From NCBI GenBank assembly GCA_944323645.1, contig CALUTE010000011.1, forward strand, positions 1-64,000: DNA of 64,000 nucleotides, in the 5' to 3' direction. The position numbers and the translations under genes are program-made. Within the stretch, counting starts at the first letter, position 1, and the number at the start of each line of letters is the position of its first letter. The DNA is from an uncultured Helicobacter sp. (GTDB lineage: Bacteria; Campylobacterota; Campylobacteria; Campylobacterales; Helicobacteraceae). Shown piece after piece: positions 11,543-22,030 of the stretch. Below the pieces are notes generated by a model. It was not told where the DNA came from and searched no databases. It worked only from the letters and a program-made list of their open reading frames with translations.

Positions 11543-12637
11543 ATGCAAAATATATCTACCATACCACCAACCTCATCTCGCAGAATGCTCGCTGAATGGG
11601 AAGAACAAAGTGCTATTTTACTTGCTTTTCCTCATAAAAACAGCGATTGGGAATATTGTATCGATGAAATACGTGAGTGCTTTTGTCGTATCATTGCTTT
11701 GATTATACAATTTGAACCTGTACTTATTTGCGTTGATACACGCGACAAAGATGGACTTTTGCTATTATATGATCGCTTTGCAAACACCAAAGCAGAATCT
11801 ATTGAGCTATCTCCTTACACAAGCATACAACTCTCAAAAGACATTACGCTTGCTTTTGTGCCCACAAACGATGTCTGGGCAAGAGACTTTGGTGCTATCA
11901 GCGTAGAATCTAAACCTCACACACTTTATTTGCTAGATTTTGTATTTAATGGCTGGGGGCTTAAATTTGCTGCAAATTTTGATAACCAAATTACAAAAAA
12001 ACTCCACGAAATGCAACTCTTGCAAGGCACATTAGAATCTCTTCCTTTTGTGTTGGAGGGTGGCAGTATTGATACCGATGGTTGCGGTAGTCTGCTTACT
12101 ACAAGTGCTTGCTTACTAGAATCTAATCGCAACCAAACACTAAACAAACGCGATATAGAACAAATGCTATGCACCACACTTGGAGTATCGCGTGTTTTGT
12201 GGCTTGATTTTGGCTATTTAGAGGGTGATGATACTGATAGTCATATCGATATGCTTGCGCGTTTTGTGGCTAAAGATACAATTGCCTATATTGGCTGTGA
12301 TGATAAAAATGATATACATTATGAACCATTGCGTGCTATGGAGCAGCAACTGCAAAGCTTTAGAGATGTGCAAGATAATCCCTATAAACTTATACGACTA
12401 CCCTTTGTGCGCACAATCTATGATGAAAATGGTACGCGATTACCTGCAAGCTATGCCAACTTTTTATTTGTCAATGGCGCGCTTCTTGTGCCGACATATA
12501 ATGATCCAAACGATACCTTAGCGCTAAAATTACTCGCACAAGCCCTACCACATCTAAAAGTACTGGGAGTTGATGCAAGAGATCTCATCAAATGGCATGG
12601 AAGCTTGCATTGTATTAGTATGCAGCTTTATAAATAA
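11543..12637 (+). CDS. Agmatine deiminase family protein
   Basis: Guanidine-modifying enzyme of the agmatine deiminase/Porphyromonas-type peptidylarginine deiminase family; the likely reaction is agmatine to N-carbamoylputrescine, feeding polyamines. In 364 residues the expected elements appear: N-terminal RMLAEWEEQSAILLAFP, DVWARDFG, FVLEGGSIDTDG, GDDTDSHIDMLARF, and the catalytic Cys357 in GSLHCISMQ. AAGGA supports the start. Its TAA overlaps the ATG of hypF by one base (TAATG), implying coupling. The same neighbour pair occurs in H. pylori as I recall it. Note the spermidine synthase homologue at 58549. Confidence 0.87.
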   Translation: MQNISTIPPTSSRRMLAEWEEQSAILLAFPHKNSDWEYCIDEIRECFCRIIALIIQFEPVLICVDTRDKDGLLLLYDRFANTKAESIELSPYTSIQLSKDITLAFVPTNDVWARDFGAISVESKPHTLYLLDFVFNGWGLKFAANFDNQITKKLHEMQLLQGTLESLPFVLEGGSIDTDGCGSLLTTSACLLESNRNQTLNKRDIEQMLCTTLGVSRVLWLDFGYLEGDDTDSHIDMLARFVAKDTIAYIGCDDKNDIHYEPLRAMEQQLQSFRDVQDNPYKLIRLPFVRTIYDENGTRLPASYANFLFVNGALLVPTYNDPNDTLALKLLAQALPHLKVLGVDARDLIKWHGSLHCISMQLYK

Positions 12638-15219
12638 TGCTTTGCTTACGTTTTATAGGGCTTGTACAAGGTGTTGGATTTCGCCCATTTTTTTATCGTA
12701 TAGCCCATAAACACAATATTTATGGTGGCATACTCAATCATCAAGGCTATGGAGTCGCGCTCATAGATCTAGCATATAGTTGGTCTTTGGTTGCACCTTT
12801 ACCAAAATTAGTGCGTTTTGTCATACTTGAGATTGCATATCCTATGCGAGGCTTTGGTGTTTTAGCAAACAATACAGGATTTTCGCAGTTTTTTAGCGCA
12901 ATCTTTGCTTCACTTCCACCACTTGCACGCATAGATTCTATACAGATACGCCAAGCCACACTAAAAGAAATAGAGCAACTCCTAAAATTAGCTCCAAAAG
13001 CAATGGGGTTTGCGATTTTGCCTTCAGATTCTTGGAATCTAAATGTTAAGACTTCTTTAGCCTATGCATTACCGCAAGATAGCGCAACGTGCAAGGAATG
13101 CTTGGAAGATATATTTTCTCCTACAAGTCGCCATTATGGTTATCATCTTACCTCTTGCACAAACTGCGGAGCACGCTATAGTATTATCAAAGACATACCC
13201 TATGATAGAGAACATACAGCGATGAAACCTTTTATACTCTGCAAAAATTGTGCTAGAGATTATACTAACCCTCTTAGTCGCTTTTATCATGCACAGCCAA
13301 TCTCCTGCAACAATTGTGCTATACCGCTTAAGCTCTTAGATTCCAAGAATGTCGTGATCGCATATGGATCTAAAGCGATAGAATCTTGTGCTAATATATT
13401 GCAACAAGGGGAAATCATCTGTATGAAAGGGCTTGGTGGTTTTGCACTGATTTGTAATGCAAGCAACAAAGAATCTATAATGCGTCTTCGCAAACATAAA
13501 ATGCGCCCTAAAAAACCATTTGTTGTGATGTTTTCATCATTGGCTAAGGCTTCCAAAGCTGTCTATCTCAATGCCAAAGAACAAGAAGCACTTACCGCCT
13601 CAAATGCTCCAATTGTACTTGCAAGTATGCGGCAAAACAATCCCTCATCACTAGCACTTGAAGAAATAGCGCCAAATCTCACAACGCTTGGTGTAATGCT
13701 TGCCAATACCCCTTTGCAACACCTACTACTTGCACAACTACCATTCCCAATCATCTACACGAGTGCCAATCGTCAAAAAGAACCAATCATTACAAATATT
13801 ACACAAGCTATGGAAGTATTTGGCGGAATGATTAGCTATTTTTTGGATTTTTCACGCGAGATTTATAATGGAATTGATGATAGCATTGTTCGCTATATCG
13901 ATAATGAAATTCGCCCCATACGACTTGCACGAGCATACACACCAAAAAGTATTAGCCTGCGACACCTCTCTACACCCTTGCTACAAGCACAAGATGTTAT
14001 ACCAGAATCTAAGAAGTCAATTATGGCACTTGGCGCACAAGATAAGGCAAATATCGTGTTTGCACAAGGAGAGCACTGCCTTATTACGCCATATGTTGGC
14101 AATATGGAATCACTTGCAGCCTATACGCGCTATCAAGATAATCTTGCTTTTTTTGAAAAAATCTATGCATTTACGCCAGAAATCATCATAAGTGATAAGC
14201 ACCCGCGCTACCATACAACAGAGTTTGCGCATACGCTTTGCGCAAAATATACACAAGATTCCCCATCAAATACAACAATACAACACCTACAAATCTATCA
14301 TCATCACGCCCATTTATGCGCAATTCTAGCAGAATGTGCGCATACAAAAGAAGAGCAAATTCTTGGTATTATATGGGATGGAAGTGGTTTTGGAGCAGAT
14401 AAAAGCATTTGGGGTGGAGAATTTTTGTGGGGTGGTTTTGAAGGTTTTGATAGGGTTGGATATTTTGAGCCATTTGGGCTATTTGGAGGGGAGCAAGCCA
14501 TAAAAGATATAAGACGTATAGGCTATATGCTAGCACTCTATGCGCAACATCTGCCAACAATCGCTCGCTTAGAGGACAAACTCCCCAAAGCTTTATGCAA
14601 AGCTATGCGCAAAGCCTTAGAAACACTACAAACTCGCACACCAAAAAGTTTAGATTCTGCACCAAACACACACACTGCAAGTATGTTTATGCCAATGACA
14701 AGTTCTGTTGGTAGGCTTATTGATGGCGTAGCATTTTTGCTTGGGGTGCTAACACACACAAGCTATGAGGGTGAGGCAGGCGCATTACTAGAATCTTTGA
14801 TTTTAGAGCATAAACCCTATGAGCTATCGCCCTACCCTTATGAGTTGCACTCTGTGCATAACGATAAATATATAATTATATGGAATAAGCTTGTATATGC
14901 CATATGTGAAGACATACACAACCAAGAAAACAAAGCCAAAATCGCTTCTAAATTTTTCTATACGCTTGCTAGAATCGCCTTGCAGGTTGCACTGCAGTTT
15001 CAGCAAGAATACTGCGCCAAGAATGGGTATTCGCTCAAAGTTGGCTTCAGTGGTGGTGTTTTTCAAAACAAAGTTCTGTGCGAAATGATAGGACAAGTCT
15101 TTCGCGAAGCGGGTATAACCTATGCTTTTCATACGATTGTACCTTGTAATGATGGTGGAATCGCATTTGGACAAGCTGCTTATGGAATGTTTGTTGGATC
15201 TAATATATCTAAACCCTAA
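12637..15219 (+). CDS. hypF: [NiFe]-hydrogenase maturation carbamoyltransferase HypF
   Basis: Makes the carbamoyl group that HypE turns into the cyanide ligand of the [NiFe] hydrogenase active site. Domains in order: acylphosphatase with LVQGVGFRP and catalytic Arg16; two zinc fingers (Cys152, 155, 174, 177 and 202, 205, 224, 227); a YrdC-like domain (about 245-425); and a Kae1-like carbamoyl-transfer domain with the HHHAHL metal motif and GIIWDGSGFG. At 860 residues it is longer than E. coli HypF (about 750), with extra sequence in the last domain. It overlaps the upstream gene by one base and the convergent nadV stop by four. Confidence 0.96.
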   Translation: MLCLRFIGLVQGVGFRPFFYRIAHKHNIYGGILNHQGYGVALIDLAYSWSLVAPLPKLVRFVILEIAYPMRGFGVLANNTGFSQFFSAIFASLPPLARIDSIQIRQATLKEIEQLLKLAPKAMGFAILPSDSWNLNVKTSLAYALPQDSATCKECLEDIFSPTSRHYGYHLTSCTNCGARYSIIKDIPYDREHTAMKPFILCKNCARDYTNPLSRFYHAQPISCNNCAIPLKLLDSKNVVIAYGSKAIESCANILQQGEIICMKGLGGFALICNASNKESIMRLRKHKMRPKKPFVVMFSSLAKASKAVYLNAKEQEALTASNAPIVLASMRQNNPSSLALEEIAPNLTTLGVMLANTPLQHLLLAQLPFPIIYTSANRQKEPIITNITQAMEVFGGMISYFLDFSREIYNGIDDSIVRYIDNEIRPIRLARAYTPKSISLRHLSTPLLQAQDVIPESKKSIMALGAQDKANIVFAQGEHCLITPYVGNMESLAAYTRYQDNLAFFEKIYAFTPEIIISDKHPRYHTTEFAHTLCAKYTQDSPSNTTIQHLQIYHHHAHLCAILAECAHTKEEQILGIIWDGSGFGADKSIWGGEFLWGGFEGFDRVGYFEPFGLFGGEQAIKDIRRIGYMLALYAQHLPTIARLEDKLPKALCKAMRKALETLQTRTPKSLDSAPNTHTASMFMPMTSSVGRLIDGVAFLLGVLTHTSYEGEAGALLESLILEHKPYELSPYPYELHSVHNDKYIIIWNKLVYAICEDIHNQENKAKIASKFFYTLARIALQVALQFQQEYCAKNGYSLKVGFSGGVFQNKVLCEMIGQVFREAGITYAFHTIVPCNDGGIAFGQAAYGMFVGSNISKP

Positions 15220-16634
15220 CTTGTAATCGCACGCAAAAATTCTTGTTTGCTATAAGCTCTCATTGCCTCAAAACTAGGTAAATGCAAGTCGTGCGTTAAT
15301 ACATCATCTGCTATTGTGTCATCTAAAAATTGCAGTACCTCTCGATTTGGTTTGAGTGCGACTTTGCCTGAAAGAGACATTTTATAGCCACCAGTTATAG
15401 GATTTTTGATAAGATGTTGTGATTTGCCATTTATTTTTATCCAAGTCATTTTACTCACAAGCCCAACATCATCACGGATTCCAGAATTATACGCACAACT
15501 TCCAACCCCAAAACAAAGAAAAGTAGTTGGATCATATTGGTGCTGCTTACACCACGCATAGATTGATCGAGCGCGCTCTGTTGTAATCGCATCTCCATAG
15601 ATAATGCGTACCTTATCAAGTCCAAAATAAGAATCTATCAAGCGAATTACACCAAGTCTTGCACGCTCATCACTTGCATTATAATCACCTGTAAGAATCT
15701 CGTAAGGATCACCAGAATCTGGGCGGATTACAATAGGGTAAGCGCGGGTATTGATCATTGTGTAAGCTTCTTTATCATCACGCAATGCTTGAATAATCTC
15801 CCACAAATTCCATGTATCAGCAACGATTGAAACCATAGAAAGAGGAAATGCACGCATTATGCGCTTGAATGTCTCTACCTCGCCCTCTTTGCCGCCCATA
15901 CACATCACACTATGCTCGCTTGCTGGGATAGAACCAATATGTCGCACATCACCTCCATAATTATCACAGATATTTTGCAATGCCATAACAGAATCTGTTC
16001 CACTAAAAAAAAGTAAATGCCCCATAGCAGAAGCATAGCAATCAGCAATCCCATTCATACCACGCTGCGAAAAATCATGGAAATTATAACTTTCGTCAAG
16101 ATACCTACCCAAAAAATCATATTCTATGCGTTTAAAAAGTGCCGCCTTAGTTGCAACAAAACAAGCCTTCCAAAGTTCTGAATTCAAATATGTCTCAACA
16201 AAATTCACAAACCAGCAATGCGCACTTTCCTTGCATTCTATGGTAATAATAGGTGTATTTGGTCGAACAAATGTGCCTTCTGGCAAAGCTTTAAAGAGGA
16301 TTGGCATTTTGGGTGGCAAATCAAGCCATTTCTGAATTAAAAACGCGTAGGATTCTTGAGTGGAATCAAGCTTCATAAAATCACTATACAAAAAATGCAA
16401 TGCTTGTTTAAGCTCTTCTTTTGGATAACTCACAAACTCCGCATATAAGGATTCTAGTTTGATAATAGCTTGGCGCATACCAAAGGCGACAATATGTCCA
16501 TTGAGCGTATGCAAATCAAGACCTGGTTTGCGACAATAAAGCACACTATAAACCTCTTCCACATTATCTGGATACATTGCTGCGTGGGTATATTTATAAC
16601 AGTCTGCAATAAAAAGTAACCGAGGATACTGCAT
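15216..16634 (-). CDS. nadV: Nicotinamide phosphoribosyltransferase
   Basis: Converts nicotinamide and PRPP to NMN for one-step NAD salvage. The 472-residue protein matches NAMPT/NadV rather than nicotinate enzymes: FHDFSQRG (185-192), IPASEHSVM (236-244, His241 equivalent to the phosphorylated His), VSIVADTWN (268-276) and VIRPDSGDP (302-310). Its ATG overlaps the stop of the sirtuin gene by one base (TAATG). A sirtuin releases nicotinamide, so the pair forms a recycling circuit. The gene ends four bases inside the convergent hypF and no terminator is visible. Confidence 0.93.
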   Translation of the reverse strand: MQYPRLLFIADCYKYTHAAMYPDNVEEVYSVLYCRKPGLDLHTLNGHIVAFGMRQAIIKLESLYAEFVSYPKEELKQALHFLYSDFMKLDSTQESYAFLIQKWLDLPPKMPILFKALPEGTFVRPNTPIITIECKESAHCWFVNFVETYLNSELWKACFVATKAALFKRIEYDFLGRYLDESYNFHDFSQRGMNGIADCYASAMGHLLFFSGTDSVMALQNICDNYGGDVRHIGSIPASEHSVMCMGGKEGEVETFKRIMRAFPLSMVSIVADTWNLWEIIQALRDDKEAYTMINTRAYPIVIRPDSGDPYEILTGDYNASDERARLGVIRLIDSYFGLDKVRIIYGDAITTERARSIYAWCKQHQYDPTTFLCFGVGSCAYNSGIRDDVGLVSKMTWIKINGKSQHLIKNPITGGYKMSLSGKVALKPNREVLQFLDDTIADDVLTHDLHLPSFEAMRAYSKQEFLRAITS

Positions 16635-17395
16635 TATATCTCCTTAAAAAAAATAGTAAGTTCTTGTTCTATATCCTGAATAGCTTGCGTAGCAGGCTTG
16701 TAGAGCAATACATCAAACACAGATTCTGCAATGGTTTTGCTTTTGGCAAGATTGTTTAGGATTTTGCGCCCGATCTTATTATAAGAAGATTCTGCACGTG
16801 CTAGAATCATACTAATATCAACTACACTGCCACTTGTGCCAATAACAAGCACACAATCCTGCGCCCCAAGCGATGAAAAGACTTCATACATCTTGGCATA
16901 AAGTGGTGCTTGCTCATAAAAAAAGACAACCTTTGGTTTCATACGCTCATACCCACACTGCCCACAAGGACGCATATCAAATGCTTGATAACCTATCTCA
17001 AGGACACACTTACAACGCGGACAAGTAATCTTTGTAAGTTCGCCATGAATATGCATAGCATCTTTGATTCCAGCACGCTCAAGCAAATCATCGATATTTT
17101 GTGTAATATGAATCACCTCAATTGGTTTTGGTTTTTTATATGCTCTTGGAATAGATTGGAAGAATTCTTGCAAAGAAGCAAGAAAAAAATGCATAGCATT
17201 TGGTTTGGCGGCTGCTAGCTCTGCACGCCGTTTGTTATAAAAACTATGCACAAGAGCATAATTTTCCTCCCAATTCTCATAGTTGCACACTTCCATAGGA
17301 TCATATTGTGCCCATAAACCATTGTCGTCACGAAAGGTGGGGATTCCAGATTCTGCACTAAGCCCAGCACCACTAAAGACAACGAGTTTTGGCAT
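16634..17395 (-). CDS. cobB: Sirtuin NAD-dependent protein deacylase
   Basis: Removes acyl groups from lysines, consuming NAD+ and releasing nicotinamide. The 253-residue protein has GAGLSAESGIPTFRD at 9-23, TQNIDDLLERAG at 98-109, catalytic His117 in HIHGE, a four-Cys zinc site (Cys125, 128, 144, 147) and GTSGSVV. The YNKR segment (Tyr53, Arg56) matches the Tyr-x-x-Arg acid-recognition motif of class III sirtuins such as E. coli CobB, predicting desuccinylase activity. AAGGAG precedes the ATG. It sits 33 bp after hypE and overlaps nadV by one base. Confidence 0.94.
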   Translation of the reverse strand: MPKLVVFSGAGLSAESGIPTFRDDNGLWAQYDPMEVCNYENWEENYALVHSFYNKRRAELAAAKPNAMHFFLASLQEFFQSIPRAYKKPKPIEVIHITQNIDDLLERAGIKDAMHIHGELTKITCPRCKCVLEIGYQAFDMRPCGQCGYERMKPKVVFFYEQAPLYAKMYEVFSSLGAQDCVLVIGTSGSVVDISMILARAESSYNKIGRKILNNLAKSKTIAESVFDVLLYKPATQAIQDIEQELTIFFKEI

Positions 17396-17428
17396 ATTTT
17401 CTCCTTTGGATAGCTACTGCGAGAAATC

Positions 17429-18433
17429 TTAGCATATTCTTGGTAACAGCTCACCCTGAGGATATTCCATAAAACGCTTGCCACCCCACTGATTTTTGAG
17501 CACAACACGCGCACCAACTTGACCAGAATCTAATACTTCACCGATAACACAAGCTTGCGCTCCAAGCGAATGTGCCCGCAAAAGTGCGCAAACCTCATCA
17601 GCATTCTCTCTTGCAACACCAAGCACACAAACCCCTTCATTGGCAAGCTGTGTTGCCTCAAGCCCCAGAATCTCACACACACCCCAAACGCGTTCATCAA
17701 CCAAAATCTTTGCTTCATCGATCTCTATGCACACTTGCGCATCTTGCGCCCACTCATTAAGCACTGCGGCAAGTCCTCCCCGTGTCGCATCGCGCAAAGT
17801 ATGCAGGTTAAGATTGCTCAAAAAGAGTGGCTCAAGCATAGGATAAAGCTGTGCGCAATCACTTGATAAATGAGATTCTAGCTCGATACCTTCGCGTATA
17901 GCAAAAATACTTGCCCCGTGTGCGCCAATGCCTGCAGAAAGAATGATCACATCATTTGGACGTAAAGCTTTTGAAGAAATATTTGGCTTAATGATATGTC
18001 CTATACAAGTTGTATTAATAAAAATTTTATCAGCGCTTCCTTTTGGAACGACCTTGGTGTCGGCACTAAGAATCTTAATATTTGTGTTAGAAAGCTCTGT
18101 AGCGATACTACAAACAATGGATTCTAACTCTTGCATACTAAATCCTTCTTCAAGAATAAAGCCAAGGCTTATAAACTCGGGTTTTGCACCCATCATCGCC
18201 ACATCATTACTGCTTCCACATACACTAAGCTTGCCAATATCGCCACCTGGAAAAAATATCGGAGTGATGACAAAGCTATCAGTACTTAGTGCCAAACCTC
18301 CATTTGCGTGAAACACACCCGCATCTTCACCATAAGAGACAAATGAAGTTCCCAAATGTTTTAAAAATACATTCTGAATGAGTTCATTTGTCGATGCACC
18401 TCCACTACCTTGTGCAAGAGTGATTGTCTGCAT
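17429..18433 (-). CDS. hypE: [NiFe]-hydrogenase maturation protein HypE
   Basis: Dehydrates the thiocarbamate made with HypF to a thiocyanate, the source of the cyanide ligands. The 334-residue PurM-like protein begins with LAQGSGGASTNELI and has the AIRS core signature VCGSSNDVAMMGAKPEF. It ends in PRIC, placing the essential Cys334 exactly at the C-terminus. AAGGAGG gives a strong RBS. Its partner hypF lies on the opposite strand about 2.2 kb away, with nadV and cobB in between. No hypA, hypB, hypC or hypD gene is in the window. Confidence 0.96.
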   Translation of the reverse strand: MQTITLAQGSGGASTNELIQNVFLKHLGTSFVSYGEDAGVFHANGGLALSTDSFVITPIFFPGGDIGKLSVCGSSNDVAMMGAKPEFISLGFILEEGFSMQELESIVCSIATELSNTNIKILSADTKVVPKGSADKIFINTTCIGHIIKPNISSKALRPNDVIILSAGIGAHGASIFAIREGIELESHLSSDCAQLYPMLEPLFLSNLNLHTLRDATRGGLAAVLNEWAQDAQVCIEIDEAKILVDERVWGVCEILGLEATQLANEGVCVLGVARENADEVCALLRAHSLGAQACVIGEVLDSGQVGARVVLKNQWGGKRFMEYPQGELLPRIC

Positions 18434-18452: not shown

Positions 18453-19052
18453 TTAGAGCAAATGCCCAAGCTTTTGCTTCTTTGTTTTGAGATACTGCTC
18501 ATTATGCACATTGCTCTGCACAATAATACTATCACGCACAACCTCCACAAACGCACTGAGTGCTTTGATTTTTCGTGGATTATTAGTGAGTAAGCGTACG
18601 CTATTGATTTGATAATATTGCAAAATCTTACCCACAATCTCATAGTTTCGGTTATCACTTTCAAATCCAAGCGCAATATTGGCTTCCACTGTATCATAGC
18701 CTTGATCCTGTAAGGCATAGGCATTAACCTTGTTGAATAGCCCTATACCACGCCCCTCTTGGCGTAAGTAAATAAGCATTCCGCCTTCTTTTGCATTTTG
18801 TGCGATCTGTTCCATAGCAAGCGCCAACTCACCACCACAATCACACTTTTGAGAACCAAACACATCGCCTGTTAGGCATTCAGAATGCACACGCAATAGT
18901 GGTACTTTGCCTAAATGTGGAGTTGTAACTACTAAATGCTCCAATGAGCAATCACACTCCCCCTTTGTGCCTAATTCTCGGAATGATTGAATGATAAAAT
19001 CACCAAAGCGTGTGGGGAGTTTTGCCTTATTTGAAATATCAATATTCTTCAT
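18453..19052 (-). CDS. ribA: GTP cyclohydrolase II
   Basis: First step of riboflavin synthesis: GTP to 2,5-diamino-6-ribosylamino-pyrimidinone phosphate. The 199-residue protein is the stand-alone length. The zinc ligands lie in [20 protein letters not shown], and [16 protein letters not shown] carries the catalytic region, followed by [15 protein letters not shown] supports the ATG. It is followed 19 bp later by hypE on the same strand, so ribA-hypE-cobB-nadV looks like one operon. Confidence 0.96.
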
Positions 19053-19094: not shown

Positions 19095-19994
19095 TTAAAA
19101 ACGCATAGCAAACCCCATACCAAAGGGACTACTCCACGAAACAACCTCCCGCATATCATTAATGCCCACCATTTTTGCAAGCCCTAAATCACGCATAATC
19201 ATACCAATAGGGTCCATAAAAGCAACAAGTATATGCCCTAAAATCTTGGAACCAAACAAGCGGTTATTATGAGACTGAATATATTTGGTAGATTGATAAA
19301 ATATCTCACCAAAGATTGAACCTATAGCAGGCGTATAGATGAGATCTTGCCAACTTGGAATTTCTACAAATGCTTCGATTCCATATTCCCAAAAGATCGC
19401 AGAAGTAATAAAAGAAAACAGTGCAGATTCTGCCCAAGAATACCCAGCCACACGAGGTTGCATATAATACACAGCACCAAAATAAGGGTGTGTTATGCCA
19501 TTCAAAAAGAAGTTATCTCTATCAATCACGGGACCTATGCGAACATCTTCATACCACGCCTGAAGTCCAAAACGTGATCTATCCCAATTTGTAACACTTT
19601 CTGGCATAAGATATAGCCCAACAATACTAACAACAATACCACCACTAAGCAACCCAATAGTTGTACCAAGATATTTTCCAGCAGAATCTGGTTTATAATA
19701 CGCGGGTACATCAAACGATAAACCTTGCTTAGAATCTGCTAAACTATGTGGAGAAGCTCCATCTATGTGGTTAGAATGATGGTTGGTATCTTGTATGGCA
19801 ACATAGATCTTGGGAGGATGCTTTAAAAACGTATTATCTGAGATATCTTGCAGAGATAGGTGAGACTTCTGTATAGACATAGGGGCAATATCTGTAACTC
19901 TAGAACGTTCTAAAGCACATAAACTCTGTGTATGTGCGAAAAGCAACAATACTATATGACATAATGGTTTTGTACTATACATAATTGTTTGCAT
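19095..19994 (-). CDS. DUF3943 domain protein, envelope-located
   Basis: Function unknown. An N-terminal hydrophobic segment ending near residue 27 (SLCA) looks like a signal peptide. A hydrophobic stretch near 105-130 follows, then the DUF3943-type core around 155-235 (DRDNFFLNGITHPYFGAVYY, then EYGIEAFVEIPSWQDLIYTP). The protein ends in GMGFAMRF with a terminal Phe, compatible with an outer-membrane barrel. It follows the LpxR-type gene on the same strand after 80 bp and precedes ribA by 42 bp. The pairing hints at envelope lipid remodelling, but this is only context. Confidence 0.65.
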   Translation of the reverse strand: MQTIMYSTKPLCHIVLLLFAHTQSLCALERSRVTDIAPMSIQKSHLSLQDISDNTFLKHPPKIYVAIQDTNHHSNHIDGASPHSLADSKQGLSFDVPAYYKPDSAGKYLGTTIGLLSGGIVVSIVGLYLMPESVTNWDRSRFGLQAWYEDVRIGPVIDRDNFFLNGITHPYFGAVYYMQPRVAGYSWAESALFSFITSAIFWEYGIEAFVEIPSWQDLIYTPAIGSIFGEIFYQSTKYIQSHNNRLFGSKILGHILVAFMDPIGMIMRDLGLAKMVGINDMREVVSWSSPFGMGFAMRF

Positions 19995-21592: not shown

Positions 21593-21796
21593 TTATTTTG
21601 CTTCAGCAGATGTAGCTTCAGGTGCAACTGTTTCAGTAGGTTCTGTTGTTTGTGTTGCTTCTGGCGCCGCTTCAGGTGCAACTGTTTCAGTAGGTTCTGT
21701 TGTTTGTGTTGCTTCCTCTTGCTTGTTATCACCGCAAGCACTAAAAAGCACAGCTACCGCCGCTACAATTGCCAATTTAGAAAGAAAACTCTTCAT
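21593..21796 (-). CDS. Small repeat-bearing lipoprotein
   Basis: 67-residue predicted lipoprotein. MKSFLSKLAIVAAVAVLFSAC is a lipoprotein signal with the lipid-modified Cys21. The mature part is a Thr/Glu/Pro/Ala-rich tail made of two 18-residue units containing EATQTTEPTETVAPEA. AAGGAG seven bases before the ATG at 21796 fixes the start; an upstream extension to 21898 is not needed. The tail is probably extended and exposed. The function is unknown. It lies 108 bp upstream of lpxR on the same strand and is divergent from the PDZ gene. Confidence 0.82.
   Translation of the reverse strand: MKSFLSKLAIVAAVAVLFSACGDNKQEEATQTTEPTETVAPEAAPEATQTTEPTETVAPEATSAEAK
21615..21715. repeat. 54-bp period direct repeat inside lipoprotein gene
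   Basis: A 47-bp block at 21615-21661 recurs exactly at 21669-21715. The 54-bp period equals 18 codons, so gain or loss of units keeps the reading frame and would only lengthen or shorten the lipoprotein tail. Exact identity at the DNA level indicates a recent duplication. Confidence 0.92.
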
Positions 21797-22030
21797 ACGA
21801 AACTCCTTAAGGGTAATGTGAGATTCAACTTTAGCGCAATAAGGATTAATCTTACATAAAATTTGCATTAGTTTTTTGAATCTTATATAAAACTCCATAA
21901 TGCTATTGCCTTGCTAAAATCTAGAATCTACTCAAATCCAAAACTATGATAGATTCTATGTGGTAGATTCTGCGCTATTTAGATATTAGCCACCAAACCA
22001 ATAATGCCTAGATTCTGTGCGAAAGTTTGC

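Follow-up and report, generated by a model that had tools for sequence, protein, structure and literature searches.

Nicotinamide salvage through NadV as a probable substitute for de novo NAD synthesis in Helicobacter, next to a neighbouring sirtuin gene

We suggest that in the uncultured Helicobacter sp. investigated here a nicotinamide phosphoribosyltransferase (NadV) is very probably the entry point of the only recognisable route to NAD, replacing a lost de novo synthesis and making the cell dependent on nicotinamide, and that the sirtuin gene cobB in front of nadV is probably its neighbour by chance. Both genes lie in the window, the whole stretch of 64,000 nucleotides that was analysed (contig C11 of genome G000, called here the window genome). 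In two Helicobacter genera, the replacement of de novo NAD synthesis by a dependence on nicotinamide can be traced, two genomes (G046 and G047) apparently showing an intermediate state. H. canis and its relatives are predicted to have a simple growth requirement, which might be a reason why they depend on the host. In the open-access literature, which gives limited coverage, we found no published account of such a switch in NAD routes or of this locus.

Layout of the locus and gene order in relatives

The minus strand of the window carries, in the order of reading, genes for a DUF3943 protein (19095..19994), GTP cyclohydrolase II (ribA, 18453..19052), the hydrogenase maturation protein HypE (17429..18433, directly upstream of cobB), a Sir2-family NAD-dependent deacylase of 253 aa (cobB, 16634..17395) and NadV, of 472 aa (nadV, 15216..16634). 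The last two were identified from their ORFs, domain matches and PDB hits, together with motifs for cobB and an alignment for nadV. Both frames are intact and share a single base at 16634 (TAATG), which confirms the overlap given in the preliminary description. Only 19 bp separate ribA from hypE and 33 bp separate hypE from cobB, ribosome-binding-like sequences are present, and the counts of internal promoters and terminators are not above those of shuffled sequence. A shared transcript of ribA, hypE, cobB and nadV, as had been proposed, is likely. On the plus strand, the carbamoyltransferase gene hypF (12637..15219) converges on nadV, the 3' ends overlapping by 4 bases, and the gene of an aguA-like agmatine deiminase with a PAD_porph domain (11543..12637, also plus strand) has one base of its stop codon in common with the start of hypF. 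Since hypF is on the opposite strand and convergent, there is no interrupted hypE-hypF operon in the window: the earlier remark that cobB and nadV separate hypE from hypF is true of the map but not as an operon insertion.

From 121 analysed family genomes, NadV was found in 17, belonging to only two genera: that of the window (4 from 5 species) and a second one, g3 (13 species). In three congeners, H. canis (G049), G051 and G052, nadV comes directly behind hypE with about 28-31 bases between them, a clean empty site without cobB, and the order DUF3943-ribA-hypE-nadV is kept, the window having the same order with cobB interposed. In relatives the pair is therefore not a unit: three of the other four congeners have nadV alone behind hypE, and the window genome has cobB in addition. 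The supposed lineage specificity, on the other hand, was borne out, with hypE-cobB-nadV in the window genome alone and hypE-nadV in those three congeners.

The fifth species of the genus, G050, is without nadV and shows the order aguA-hypF-hypE, which is also found, colinear, in G024, G007 and the H. pylori group, in agreement with the hypE-hypF neighbourhood given for H. pylori in the preliminary description. The two genes are thus neighbours in the pylori group, but in the window hypE seems to have moved to a place behind ribA, rather than a gene pair having entered between hypE and hypF. In three relatives, a gene with GmrSD_N/GmrSD_C domains (DUF262/DUF1524) converges on nadV (L056:5221-6915 in H. 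canis, L055:3836-5626 and L057:5625-6419), a place taken by hypF in the window. In G049 and G052 the protein is matched by PADLOC HEC-06/Orf5, whereas the ORF read in G051 covers the C-terminal domain only.

NAD supply in NadV carriers

The window NadV matches PF04095 (NAPRTase; 84 bits, cut-off 20.8) and PF18127 (NAMPT_N; 27.8 bits, cut-off 25), and the top hits in the PDB are nicotinamide phosphoribosyltransferases (E 2e-63). The closest NCBIfam model, PRK09198, carries the name nicotinate phosphoribosyltransferase; it is matched below its cut-off. Candidate residues of the nicotinamide/PRPP site are F188 and R191 (HDFSQRG), D214 (GTDSV), H241 (EHSVM) and R304/D306 (RPDSGDP). They agree with those of characterised NAMPTs, including the amide-recognising Asp (human D219, Xcc D203), whose role, like that of the catalytic His, is taken from PMC10907753. 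Since 17 of 17 aligned Helicobacter NadV sequences conserve D214 together with H241, R304 and D306, the catalytic His, Arg and Asp, the protein sequence argues for nicotinamide as the substrate.

NadV would join PRPP to nicotinamide, coming from the host or diet or released inside the cell, producing NMN. This would be deamidated by PncC to NaMN, adenylated by NadD to NaAD and amidated by NadE to NAD. Such a NadV-PncC route was described in gut bacteria (PMC6593275) and in Shewanella (PMC3855486). All its genes are here as in Shewanella oneidensis, with PncC, NadD and NadE found by profile searches in the window genome. S. oneidensis keeps NadA/B/C (PMC3855486), whereas NadA and NadC were not found by profile searches in the window genome (a draft of 45 contigs, estimated as 99.99% complete), so that NadV-PncC is its only recognisable route. 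The NadD frame is truncated at the end of a contig (180 aa) and reaches 95 bits, with a curated cut-off of 112, and for this reason its identity rests on its best match. The genome has four nucleotidyltransferases, among which NadM and NadR were not found; the three besides NadD are CoaD, HldE and a phosphoenolpyruvate (PEP) mutase fusion. The gene content, with NadA and NadC absent and PncC, NadD and NadE present without NadM or NadR, is thus that of a NadV-PncC salvage standing in for de novo synthesis. The fusion just mentioned joins a nucleotidyltransferase domain to PEP mutase (L128:1598-2956, on G000:C1), suggesting phosphonate metabolism or surface decoration in this genome.

Profile searches of the draft assembly found no second PF04095 protein, and therefore no recognisable PncB, and no PnuC. 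We also considered a nicotinamidase route and set it aside: besides the lack of a recognisable PncB, the sole isochorismatase-family protein (G000:C23) has its best matches among general hydrolases, below cut-off, and not with PncA. It could be a divergent nicotinamidase.

NadA is absent in 15 of the 17 genomes with NadV versus 11 of the 104 without it (Fisher p 1.6e-10, which ignores kinship), an association that goes back to only a few separate events within two genera. Among 30 genomes checked for NadC, a full-length match was missing in all NadV carriers except G046 and G047, where NadV occurs together with both NadA and NadC. NadA and NadC are also both found in G050, the species of the window's genus that has no NadV. 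NadV would have been gained by one ancestral Helicobacter, or by two through transfer, and most carriers would then have lost NadA/NadC, becoming nicotinamide-dependent. Because G046 and G047 hold both routes, they suggest that nadV was gained before nadA and nadC were lost, and would represent the intermediate state.

In G046, a PncC (CinA) match is also missing, and NMN there may go another way. Four genomes of g2, the genus that contains H. pylori (G012, G031, G032 and G033), have neither NadA nor NadV and keep NadC; their NAD may come from imported quinolinate or by a different route.

Origin of nadV and cobB

The Helicobacter NadV proteins form one clade in the tree (support 100/100), with 24-30% identity to NadV of other Campylobacterales and at most about 36% to phage and plasmid forms among the matches listed. 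In Haemophilus ducreyi, which has no de novo synthesis, it is NadV that makes nicotinamide usable. The likeness is that NadV opens nicotinamide use where de novo synthesis is missing; the H. ducreyi protein is 32% identical to the window NadV, but it is plasmid-borne (pNAD1) and falls outside the Helicobacter NadV clade. Placed behind ribA-hypE in the window's genus, nadV probably uses the transcription of that operon.

CobB is a Sir2 protein with its best matches, among solved structures, to E. coli CobB (PDB 1s5p) and SIRT5. It contains GAG at 9, the class III-type FYNxRR (YxxR) at 52-57, TQNID at 98, the catalytic-His motif HIHGE at 115 and four Zn cysteines (CPRC 125, CGQC 144), and so has the Sir2 fold motifs, catalytic His and Zn cysteines of CobB-type sirtuins. 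The YxxR motif and Zn cysteines are shared with 1s5p and SIRT5, and the differences are a length of about 250 aa and an insertion at about residues 84-96. The names given initially to both enzymes, NadV and the sirtuin CobB, are supported by domain matches and PDB hits. Most simply, CobB would be an ordinary lysine deacylase, judging from these motifs.

The window CobB has its closest homologues, with 58-68% identity, at unrelated loci of other genera, and in the tree it groups with that of G055, of another genus (support 99/94). H. canis and G052 have only a distant sirtuin, elsewhere in the genome, and a search of the family genomes detected no sirtuin in G051 or G048, both NadV carriers. 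In the hypE tree, G049, G051 and G052 form one clade, the deeper nodes not being separated. The shortest account is a gain of cobB in the window lineage (one step) versus an ancestral gain and one loss (two steps); the older gain costs only one step more because those three species form one clade. We suggest that cobB, separately acquired or moved, came to lie between hypE and nadV in the window genome, where it is probably a recent neighbour of nadV. Foreign composition was considered for both genes, but their GC and GC3 are like those of the neighbours, with no sign of recent import. A sirtuin homologue in another genome (G060:C1:442113-442854) is divided between two frames that overlap, and the gene may be frameshifted.

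Other explanations for the neighbourhood

The preliminary description had taken cobB and nadV for a closed NAD-recycling unit, in which the co-expressed NadV clears the nicotinamide released by CobB, relieves product inhibition and returns the pyridine to NAD. We consider such a dedicated module unlikely. Enzymatic logic speaks for it, the one-base overlap and operon-like layout agree with it, and PMC5107563 considers how NAMPT and sirtuins interact in phages and eukaryotes. According to that source, the KVP40-like Vibrio phages phiGrn1 and phiSt2 likewise have NAMPT and Sir2/CobB in one genome, with nicotinamide recycling proposed; however, these are phage genes with a separate NMNAT and no cobB-nadV operon described in the passages on them, while those of the window are chromosomal. 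Sirtuins are also commoner with NadV (15/17 genomes versus 38/104 without it; Fisher p 9e-5, ignoring kinship), leaving some room for coupling, but this co-occurrence is confounded by clade, since the sirtuins of NadV carriers fall in two deeply separate clades of the tree. G048 and G051 have NadV without a detected sirtuin, and 38 genomes have a sirtuin without NadV. In the family, cobB adjoins nadV in 1 of the 17 NadV genomes, the other 16 loci lacking this adjacency, so there is no sirtuin-NAMPT operon conserved in relatives, and the cluster also holds ribA and hypE, functionally unrelated. As a sirtuin precedes nadV in the window genome only, the pair looks like chance neighbours. What remains of the recycling unit is its biochemical possibility: NadV likely re-uses some nicotinamide released by CobB, as the two enzyme families would allow, and if this re-use, or a relieved product inhibition, couples the two, it would do so incidentally. 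A further proposal, in which the sirtuin of the same operon couples deacylation to nicotinamide, NadV keeping nicotinamide low and CobB active so that the acylome reports host vitamin B3, seems to us quite improbable. The locus warns against taking a one-base overlap of two NAD-related genes as sufficient proof of a functional module.

The linking of flavin, NAD and hydrogenase cofactors through ribA was not supported beyond gene order. The grouping DUF3943-ribA-hypE-nadV is common to four species of the genus (cobB being interposed in the window genome), but a biochemical link does not follow from it. In the regions fetched from g3, nadV lies elsewhere, adjoining neither hypE nor cobB, and hypE is instead found behind hypF in G050 and in the H. 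pylori group. An operon that functionally joins the supply of flavin, nickel-hydrogenase and NAD thus seems to us very improbable. An anti-phage role, also raised at first, is scarcely credible, whether a Sir2-family NADase depletes NAD on infection and NadV restores it or the pair is an NAD-repair defence. Sir2 domains do occur in some defence systems, NadV is found in many phages, where it was proposed to counteract the depletion of NAD (PMC9503650), the window NadV has matches in 1905 phage records, and the GmrSD-type gene adjoins nadV in three relatives. Nevertheless, CobB has the architecture of a small single-domain deacylase with Zn cysteines and E. coli CobB as best match, and NadV belongs to a coherent Helicobacter clade less than 36% identical to the phage hits among the matches listed. 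No PADLOC model was matched by cobB, nadV, hypE, hypF or the DUF3943 and LpxR proteins, and nadV is distributed in line with the loss of NadA/NadC. Elsewhere in the window, at 21593-21898, we observed a small lipoprotein-like ORF with TQTTEPTETVAPEA-type repeats near its C-terminus.
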